From positions 124,001 to 188,000 of the forward strand of contig NZ_FNVU01000004.1 of the NCBI RefSeq assembly GCF_900107965.1: DNA of 64,000 nucleotides. The letters are read 5' to 3'. The first letter of the stretch is position 1, and every line of letters starts with the position of its first letter. A program made the translations under genes and the position numbers. Below the pieces are notes generated by a model. It was given only the letters and a program-made list of their open reading frames with translations. It did no database searches and was not told the DNA's origin. Positions 3,401-5,661 of this stretch are shown here, one piece after another. The stretch comes from Actinacidiphila yanglinensis. Its GTDB lineage: Bacteria; Actinomycetota; Actinomycetes; Streptomycetales; Streptomycetaceae.

Positions 3401-4210
3401 TCAGGAGCGGGTGCCGGTGGAGGAGCCCGAGGCGGGGGAGACGAGGGTCGCCATGAGGGTGCCGTCGGCGTCGAAGGCCCGGAGCGTCATCGCGGGCATC
3501 GTGTCGGGGCCCGGCGGGGGCGGGCCGATGAGGTAGCCGGAGGCGTAACCGGGGTGGCCGGGCAGGGTGACGAGCCGGACCGGATACCTCCGGCCCTCGA
3601 TCGTGACGGTCATCCGCGCCGGAAGCACGGGTCCGGTGTACAGCGGGGCGAGGACGACGTGGTGCGCGTCGCCGCGGTTCTGCGAACTCAGGCTGCCGGC
3701 GGGGTGGTTGCCTCCGCCGAGGTCGTCGCACTGCCAGACGTCGCCGCTCTCGGCGATGCAGCGCCGGGTGGGTTCCAGTTTCATCCGCTCACCGTCGCCG
3801 ACGGAGAAGGGCCGCCCCGGCTGGACGACGCGCACGGCGGGTGCCGGGGTCGTGGGCAGGGGGCTCGGGGTCGGCGCGCTGGTGGACACGGCGGGCGGGG
3901 CCGGCCTGTCGGGCGCCCGGTCGTGGCTCGCCGCCGCCATGACGACGGCGCAGGCCGCGACCGCGGTGACCACGGGGAGTGTCGCGGCGATCCTGCGGGC
4001 CCGGCGGAGCCGTGCGGCCCGCTGCCTGACCGCGGCCGACCGCCAGGGGGACGGCTCGACGGCGCGTACGGCGTCGTGCAGGGCGGCCCGGACCCGGTCC
4101 TCGGCGGACATGCCGCGGGACCGCGGGTCGGACGTGCCGCCGGGTTCCCGGTTGGAGGCGGCGCGGGGGCCGTGGGGCGCTGCCGTGCCGTCGGGCGGTG
4201 GTGTGCTCAA
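3401..4210 (-). CDS. Single-pass membrane protein, putative anti-sigma/sensor partner of the SigE-family sigma factor
   Basis: 269 aa from a TTG start at 4210, six bases after the sigma stop and behind GAGAGGGG; an internal ATG (MSAEDRV) is an alternative. A basic cytoplasmic N-terminus of about 85 residues is followed by one membrane segment (TLPVVTAVAACAVVMAAAS). A Pro/Thr linker then leads to an extracellular domain of about 140 residues. That domain is visibly paralogous to the secreted protein encoded at 4851-5348. Both share VxxGR/Q, a W-flanking Cys pair, PLYxG, ARMTVT and VTLPGxPGYAxG. Position and topology suggest a membrane regulator of the sigma factor, although no HxxxCxxC zinc motif is present. 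The anti-sigma role is inference. Confidence 0.72.
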   Translation of the reverse strand: MSTPPPDGTAAPHGPRAASNREPGGTSDPRSRGMSAEDRVRAALHDAVRAVEPSPWRSAAVRQRAARLRRARRIAATLPVVTAVAACAVVMAAASHDRAPDRPAPPAVSTSAPTPSPLPTTPAPAVRVVQPGRPFSVGDGERMKLEPTRRCIAESGDVWQCDDLGGGNHPAGSLSSQNRGDAHHVVLAPLYTGPVLPARMTVTIEGRRYPVRLVTLPGHPGYASGYLIGPPPPGPDTMPAMTLRAFDADGTLMATLVSPASGSSTGTRS

Positions 4211-4216
4211 CGCCTG

Positions 4217-4864
4217 TCACCCCTCTCCATGGGCCAGGGCGGCCAGTGCCGGGTGTTCCCGTAGCTTGCGCAGGCCGCGGCTGGCCTGGCTCTTCACGTT
4301 GCCTGTACTGCAGCCGAGGATCTCGGCGACCTGGTGCTCGCTGAGGTCCTCCCAGTAGCGCAGGACGACCGCCGCGCGCTGCCGTGGCGGCAGGGTGGCG
4401 AGCGCCGAGACGAGTAAGGCGCGCTCCTCGACCTGGTCCTGTGGCGGTTCGCGCGGGCGGTCGGGGATGACGGAGGTCAGCAGCTGGACGACGCGGCGCT
4501 TGCGGAAGCGGCTGAGGTTGTTGTTGACCAGGGCGCGGTGGACGTAGGCGTCGGGTTCGTCGAGCCGGCTGATCCGGTTCCAGGCCAGGTACACCTTGGC
4601 GAGGGTGGCCTGGACGACGTCCTCCGCCTCGTGGCGGTCGCCGGTGAGCAGGTAGGCGGTGTGCACGAGCGTGGGCCAGCGCGCCGCCGCGTAGCTGTCG
4701 AAGTCCCAGCCGGCCCCGGTCCGTTCCGTGGCGGCGGGTGCGGCGGGATCACGCGGGCGGCGCCCCTCTCCCGCCCGCGCCGCGGACGGGGGCGGGGCCG
4801 CCGGCCCGGGGCGCTGGGCGCTCCGGGCCGGCAGCCCCAGTGACGGGGCGTCAGGACTGGGCAA
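4217..4864 (-). CDS. ECF RNA polymerase sigma factor, SigE family
   Basis: 215 aa. A Pro/Ala-rich leader of about 55 residues precedes sigma region 2 (TAYLLTGDRHEAEDVVQ, AWNRISRLDEPDAYVHRAL). Region 4 follows (LPPRQRAAVVLRYWEDLSE, then helix-turn-helix VAEILGCSTGNVKSQASRG). The only plausible start is the TTG at 4864. It overlaps the end of the upstream gene by 14 bases and has no Shine-Dalgarno of its own, implying translational coupling. The middle gene of a three-gene operon, it presumably directs transcription of a small regulon including itself in response to an envelope or extracellular cue. Confidence 0.9.
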   Translation of the reverse strand: MPSPDAPSLGLPARSAQRPGPAAPPPSAARAGEGRRPRDPAAPAATERTGAGWDFDSYAAARWPTLVHTAYLLTGDRHEAEDVVQATLAKVYLAWNRISRLDEPDAYVHRALVNNNLSRFRKRRVVQLLTSVIPDRPREPPQDQVEERALLVSALATLPPRQRAAVVLRYWEDLSEHQVAEILGCSTGNVKSQASRGLRKLREHPALAALAHGEG

Positions 4865-5348
4865 GAACCGCGCCCGACCTGTCGAACACGGTCACCTGCG
4901 GGATGTCGTTCAGGTCGCTCTGCGGGGCGCCCCACGCCCAGCCGGTGGCGTAGCCCGGGCTTCCGGGGAGGGTGACGACCTGGACGTCGTAGGTCACGCC
5001 GTCCTCGGTCACGGTCATCCGGGCGGCCTTGCCGGAGCCGATGTAGAGCGGGGAGTAGACGGTGCCGGTGGCGTCGCCCTGGGTCTGCACGCTGACGGTG
5101 CCGGGGGGCTGGTTGCCGTCGACGACGCTCTTGCAGCTCCACGCCACGGGGGTGCCGAGGCAGCGGTCGGTCCGGTTGAGTTGCAGGTCGACGCCGTGGC
5201 CGGTGTCCACCACCTGGCCGGGGCGGACCACCTCGACCGGCTGGTTCCCGGTACGGGCGGCCGCCGCGGTCGCGGTGCCCGCGGTGGCCAGGGTGGCGGC
5301 GGTCGCGGCGGCCAGGACGGCGGCGGTGACGATCTTGCTCGGGTACAT
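4851..5348 (-). CDS. Secreted protein, soluble paralogue of the adjacent membrane sensor ectodomain
   Basis: 165 aa. The ATG at 5348 follows CCGAGGAG and opens a classical signal peptide (MYPSKIVTAAVLAAATAA, then ATAGTATAAAA). The mature part of about 130 residues matches the extracellular domain of the protein at 3401-4210. Shared elements include RPGQV versus QPGRP, one Cys pair around a Trp (CLGTPVAWSC), GDATG, PLYIGSG, ARMTVT and VTLPGSPGYATG. It is the first gene of the sigma operon. I do not recognise a named family. Because the same fold occurs both as a secreted and as a membrane-anchored form in one operon, it may be a ligand, decoy or dimerisation partner of the sensor. Confidence 0.8.
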   Translation of the reverse strand: MYPSKIVTAAVLAAATAATLATAGTATAAAARTGNQPVEVVRPGQVVDTGHGVDLQLNRTDRCLGTPVAWSCKSVVDGNQPPGTVSVQTQGDATGTVYSPLYIGSGKAARMTVTEDGVTYDVQVVTLPGSPGYATGWAWGAPQSDLNDIPQVTVFDRSGAVLAQS

Positions 5349-5661
5349 CGTGCTCCTCGGCGTTCTCAGTTCGGCGGCGCCGCGTGGCGTGCGCCCGAAC
5401 CCGGTCCGGCAGGCCGCCGGGCGCCGGGTCCGGCGCCTCCCGCGTCGCTCGTTTTCCGGCGGAGGGGCCCTCTCCGACCTACTCACTCCCGGATCGGCCG
5501 AAGTGGTTGCACGGATCGTCGAAGTGGCTGCCGACGGGGCGCGGAGGGGCCGCGGGCCCTCGTGCGGATGTCACTTGCTGCGACGTTCTTCTCACTCATC
5601 GAACGGGAGAAGGGGTGGGCATTTGTCACGGAATCGGAATATTTGACTGGAGGTGCGCGCT
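5349..5661. other. Divergent intergenic region between the sigma operon and the PP2C gene
   Basis: No gene seen. The sigma operon is transcribed leftwards and the phosphatase rightwards, so both promoters must lie here. Only the two ribosome-binding sites are clear (AGGAG before 5348, GGAGG at 5649-5653). I could not assign -35/-10 boxes with confidence. Confidence 0.5.

Follow-up and report, generated by a model that had tools for sequence, protein, structure and literature searches.

An ECF sigma factor operon of Actinacidiphila yanglinensis with secreted and membrane-tethered copies of one ectodomain: a putative sigma/anti-sigma switch

The window analyzed here is a stretch of 64,000 nucleotides from the genome of Actinacidiphila yanglinensis. 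At positions 3401-5348, its minus strand carries three closely spaced genes, which encode a secreted protein (SEC), a SigE-family ECF sigma factor, and a single-pass membrane protein (TETH) whose extracellular part is homologous to SEC. The favored reading, to which a probability of roughly one half is assigned, takes this operon as an autoregulated ECF sigma/anti-sigma switch that chiefly yields its sensor domain in free form, which would act on the ligand of the sensor as feedback or as an effector. The coordinates and strands given for the three genes in an initial annotation of this DNA were correct. The features are as follows.

5483-5512, minus strand: putative autoregulated ECF promoter, GTGCAACC (5505-5512), 14 nt, GGGAGTGAGTA (5480-5490), a motif that relatives also carry ahead of their secreted gene
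5461-5475, minus strand: GC-rich near-palindrome GGAGAGGGCCCCTCC in the leader, just after the promoter, read from the sequence
4851-5348, minus strand: SEC, 165 amino acids; signal peptide at about residues 1-30, ectodomain at residues 37-165 (4854-5240)
4217-4864, minus strand: SigE-family ECF sigma factor (TIGR02983, 1.2e-57; Sigma70_r2 and r4); conserved sigma2-sigma4 part at residues 53-206
3401-4210, minus strand: TETH, 269 amino acids, single-pass membrane protein and putative anti-sigma factor, from sequence and model
3992-4111, minus strand: cytoplasmic module of TETH, Met34-Arg73 (helix, EPSPW, Arg-rich helix), putative sigma-binding part, from model and relatives
3935-3991, minus strand: transmembrane helix of TETH, residues 74-92, from hydropathy; a helix in the model
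3404-3841, minus strand: ectodomain of TETH with the C-terminal tail, starting at residue 124; homolog of SEC

The sigma factor contains the sigma2 and sigma4 regions only. It scores 194.3 bits for TIGR02983 ("SigE family") against a curated NCBIfam cut-off of 141.55, which confirms its earlier assignment to this family. Its start at TTG 4864 is uncertain and lies in a 14 nt overlap with the SEC stop. TETH may start at ATG 4111 (Met34) instead of TTG 4210, because several relatives begin just before the same helix.

The ectodomains of SEC and TETH are 42% identical over 129 aligned residues (E=1e-28), a match far beyond chance. This bears out the proposal of a shared domain in the initial annotation, and all of the motifs listed there, including the Cys pair flanking a Trp, are present. 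No other copy of the ectodomain was found in the whole 9.59-Mb genome at E<=0.1. Pfam and NCBIfam searches with all three proteins returned no family for the ectodomain or for the N-terminal module of TETH, Pfam gave no family match for 22 ectodomain relatives, and PDB sequence searches with the ectodomain and TETH profiles gave chance matches only. The AlphaFold2 model of SEC is a confident all-beta domain (pLDDT 93, pTM 0.86), and the model of the TETH ectodomain has a similar run of strands, with pLDDT of about 81-95 across most of the domain. Both are modeled as Ig-like beta-sandwiches. Foldseek returned nothing at E<=0.001 for either model; the best, non-significant matches were Ig-like folds, with NEAT for the SEC model and sulfite-dehydrogenase entries for both. 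A NEAT haem-binding domain was rejected, with a Foldseek E of about 0.06, a TM of about 0.4, and no Pfam match in the 22 members. The YxxxY haem motif of NEAT is also not preserved, as most Streptomyces-type members carry a Trp at the first Tyr position.

The ectodomain profile detects the domain in 95 of 395 Streptomycetaceae genomes, and same-strand pairs of ectodomain genes lying 1.1-1.6 kb apart occur in 36 of these 395 sampled genomes (hand count of the profile table). The order secreted-sigma-tethered was found in the window and in 26 further loci (25 analyzable pairs and L076), and also in L140 and L142, so that the conservation of gene order on which the initial annotation had staked its proposal is borne out. 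About one in ten related species retains the operon set as a unit. Among the carriers are Actinacidiphila rubida, A. cocklensis, Streptomyces sp. NRRL F-5123, S. albidoflavus NRRL B-1271, and several Streptacidiphilus, the last with the two-gene form in the loci read. At least 12 loci have the sigma and tethered genes without the secreted gene, and lone secreted-type genes with no adjoining sigma or tethered gene occur in two genomes (L040 in G034 and L109 in G026). The loci lacking SEC indicate that TETH and sigma can operate as a pair on their own, and the solo genes suggest that SEC may also function without a tethered partner. L040 retains most of the promoter motif. One genome (G090) carries two oppositely oriented, near-identical operon copies, L075 and L076, and the secreted gene of L076 is frameshifted. 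A class-wide search gave matches in 14 of 395 genomes, and beyond the Streptomycetaceae these were weak only. Two loci from two other actinobacterial families (L131 and L132) have weakly related ectodomains (E of about 1e-4 genome-wide) adjoining SigE-like sigmas. Three weak records were found on plasmids, one of which is a sigma with a membrane protein and without SEC.

The model of TETH shows two N-terminal helices and then the transmembrane helix. All 42 relatives in the tethered slot have, by a hydropathy rule, a short Arg-rich N-terminus followed by one hydrophobic segment, and 28 of 29 proteins in the secreted slot pass a simple signal-peptide test (also a hydropathy rule, not SignalP), the exception being the frameshifted copy in L076. 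Nearly all of the loci read have the tethered gene behind the sigma gene. Single ORFs that join a sigma-like region, a cytoplasmic linker, a membrane helix, and the ectodomain are present in L097, L106, and L110, which form one clade, and in L128 and L141. In addition, the same kind of N-terminal module is found with unrelated ectodomains behind other SigE-family sigmas (L022, L024, L029, and L032). Distances between TETH N-termini also remain correlated with sigma distances once ectodomain distance is removed (partial r 0.50-0.52). Gene adjacency, the fusions, and the module common to other SigE-family sigma partners support the assignment of sigma and TETH as a putative sigma/anti-sigma pair. 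The same three observations make it very improbable that TETH is an independent envelope protein, under sigma control like SEC and with no anti-sigma function. What speaks for such a protein, and against the switch reading, is the lack of any match between the cytoplasmic module and a known anti-sigma family in Pfam, NCBIfam, or PDB sequences. L097, L106, and L110 also have a second ECF sigma ORF on the opposite strand. The pairs of a sigma and a membrane protein with an Arg-rich module in L022, L024, L029, L032, and L033 appear as a broader, uncharacterized partner class of SigE-family sigmas.

Compared with class I anti-sigma factors, the cytoplasmic part of TETH has no Hx3Cx2C motif, and its module of about 40 residues is shorter than an ASD of about 50-100. 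The initial annotation had pointed out the missing zinc motif as a departure from the usual. The motif is indeed absent, but its absence is not unusual, as about 44% of class I anti-sigma domains also lack it (PMC7406223). Because non-zinc class I domains exist (PMC7406223), the missing motif firmly excludes only a zinc-type class I anti-sigma factor, as judged from the TETH sequence. In the comparison with class II (CnrY) and class III (RsbN), the module shows two predicted helices and no PDB sequence match.

A conserved ECF-type promoter precedes the operon, as in autoregulated ECF operons, and its -35 box contains the AAC that is canonical for ECF promoters (PMC8103513). The window-type motif is GTGCAACC-N13/14-GGGAGTGA, and the Streptomyces type is TGTCATCCGG-N-GGAGTTTG. 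An initial pattern, TGCAACC-N-GGGTGAGTA, proved too narrow to match the window and was replaced by GTGCAACCN{11,16}GGRGTGA, which has a single match in the A. yanglinensis genome, at this operon; dropping the first base adds one further match. With the first base dropped, the operon site is the only match or one of two in nine of twelve further carrier genomes, and in the other three (G006, G034, and G090) this exact pattern finds nothing at the operon. Nine genomes that lack the window-type system yield 0-1 matches each. For the Streptomyces-type pattern, five out of five matches lie at the operon. Two-gene loci have the window-type motif (L035, L036, L100, and L101) or the Streptomyces type (L041) before the sigma gene. 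These patterns are most simply read as autoregulation, with SEC at the head of a very small regulon, and we infer that the promoter is used by the sigma factor of this operon. The leader near-palindrome, possibly a hairpin or an operator, has a similar counterpart, GTGGAGAGGCGCCCTCC, in the corresponding position of many Streptomyces-type loci.

The position of SEC as the first gene behind a promoter motif that is almost unique to the operon would also be expected if SEC were a plain effector, which arose as a copy of the sensor domain (for example, one that binds a harmful compound or enzyme) and exerts no feedback on TETH. The persistence of solo SEC genes agrees with this, as does G006, which lacks SEC and has its sole motif match before a neighboring gene for a predicted secreted protein. 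A plain effector is nevertheless considered unlikely, and the repeated homogenization of SEC and TETH described below counts against it, as this pattern points to ectodomains that are still linked to each other. The motif match in G006 (L035:3318-3345, plus strand) lies about 85 nt before the ORF at 3430-4692 (plus strand), which is convergent with and adjoins the two-gene sigma operon. The product of this ORF is predicted to be secreted and is possibly beta-propeller-like, and the gene is a candidate regulon member.

The two ectodomains of a locus tend to be matched. The mean identity is 56% within own pairs and 33% between non-cognate ones, and in 11 of 26 loci the best match is the tethered copy of the locus itself. 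On the ectodomain tree, a minimum of 12-13 switches between the labels secreted and tethered is required across well supported branches. Between the two copies of L103 and those of L082, DNA identity (93% and 91%, respectively) spans the ectodomain and ends at its borders, and identity at fourfold sites is 87-89% vs about 50-60% for typical pairs taken from different loci; L093, L107, and L108 fall in between. The tethered protein of L103 is a mosaic, as its N-terminus, like its sigma factor, is nearest to L096/L098, and in its ectodomain it is closest to the secreted copy of the same locus. Placing this ectodomain with the tethered ones of L096, L098, and L104 gives a tree that was rejected (AU p=0.001, for a group picked after seeing the tree). 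With sigma distance removed, SEC and TETH ectodomain distances correlate, also when converted loci are left out (partial r 0.64); pairwise distances are non-independent, and the p-values are a guide only. In the genus of the window, the copies are about 40% identical, old, and in separate clades. It can be concluded that conversion-like tracts confined to the ectodomain have, to judge from sequence, homogenized both copies repeatedly in several lineages. The SEC and TETH ectodomains look interchangeable in some lineages because the tracts are domain-limited and have low synonymous divergence and because the tethered protein of L103 is a mosaic. The earlier description of matched free and tethered copies thus gains support from homogenization limited to the ectodomain.

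In a rival, homotypic model, SEC would bind the TETH ectodomain directly, in an autocrine manner, and release or re-lock the sigma factor with no third ligand. The ectodomains stay matched within loci and co-diverge beyond sigma distance, which favors this homotypic model. The sulfite-dehydrogenase family carries an Ig-like dimerization domain, and its entries were among the best, non-significant Foldseek matches of both models, with the matched part not located. Homotypic binding is considered unlikely. Loci with sigma and TETH and without SEC are common, SEC occurs alone in two genomes, and cognate pairs in the genus of the window are only about 40% identical. Because of these loci without the secreted gene, or with the secreted gene alone, SEC is not an obligatory trigger, and direct homotypic signaling is less likely as a general rule. 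A more elaborate form, in which the secreted sensor domain is an autocrine protein signal whose accumulation outside the cell sets sigma activity through homotypic binding to the tethered copy, seems doubtful. The operon would then be a protein-based sensor of density or confinement, its ligand and receptor being copies of one domain that gene conversion keeps alike. The data fit better with competition of the two forms for one ligand, an option that the initial annotation had offered beside homotypic sensing.

Under the favored switch reading, the short cytoplasmic helices of TETH would hold the sigma factor inactive at the membrane, and its Ig-like ectodomain would sense an extracellular ligand or the state of the envelope. 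When TETH is altered or cleaved, the sigma factor would be freed and would transcribe its own operon from the GTGCAACC/GGGAGTGA promoter. SEC would be the first and main product and would leave the cell. Given that some lineages have SEC and TETH ectodomains that look interchangeable, SEC most likely meets the ligand of TETH. Together, the sequences, the gene order of the operon, and the homogenization of the ectodomains suggest that SEC may bind this ligand, so that competition damps the signal, or that it may neutralize the ligand as an effector. Two points weigh against this reading: conversion between close tandem copies can be neutral, and the specificity of the copies may have diverged in the genus of the window, where they are only about 40% identical.

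Membrane ECF anti-sigma factors of classes I, II, and III (RseA/RsiW/RskA, CnrY, and RsbN) are alike in being single-pass proteins encoded directly behind an ECF sigma gene, with cytoplasmic N-terminal helices, an outside sensor, and an autoregulated operon. TETH differs from them in that it has no class I or zinc signature and has an Arg-rich module of about 40 residues with two helices only, and its operon differs in its new ectodomain and secreted twin gene. The nearest idea to this operon is RsgI-type sensing. In Clostridium thermocellum, the ectodomain of RsgI-type anti-sigma factors recognizes what the secreted products of the regulon act on. Substrate-sensing RsgI factors have been described (PMC12203970). 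RsgI systems have carbohydrate-binding-type sensors and cellulosome enzymes as products, whereas the first product of the present operon is its own sensor domain in stand-alone form. Fused ECFs (IutY; ECF48/52/53, SCO4117) have the sigma factor covalently joined to transmembrane and extracytoplasmic parts, as in L097, L106, L128, and L141 (PMC8999054). However, ECF48/52/53 have a zinc-finger domain, which the present fusions lack, the ectodomain is different, and the proteins of the window are separate. The other pairs of a TIGR02983 sigma and a short Arg-rich membrane protein (L022, L024, L029, and L032) share the sigma family and the kind of N-terminal module, but their ectodomains are unrelated and no secreted twin is present in the stretches read.

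The chassis of ECF sigma factor, membrane partner, and autoregulation is already known. A literature search, with thin coverage of subscription journals, found no description of an ECF anti-sigma factor whose ectodomain also exists as a secreted copy, and within this incomplete coverage nothing relevant contradicts the earlier remark that no anti-sigma system built this way has been described. Within the same coverage, the ectodomain family, the in-operon secreted twin, and the domain-limited homogenization were also not found described. Feedback of SEC on TETH, if it exists, would be an undescribed form of anti-sigma control as far as the literature searched shows. The signals of most ECF switches are not known, and a soluble copy of the sensor means that the signal or ligand could be fished with a small and probably stable secreted protein. 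Natural experiments are at hand across the Streptomycetaceae, in which pairs, loci without SEC, SEC alone, and fusions all occur.
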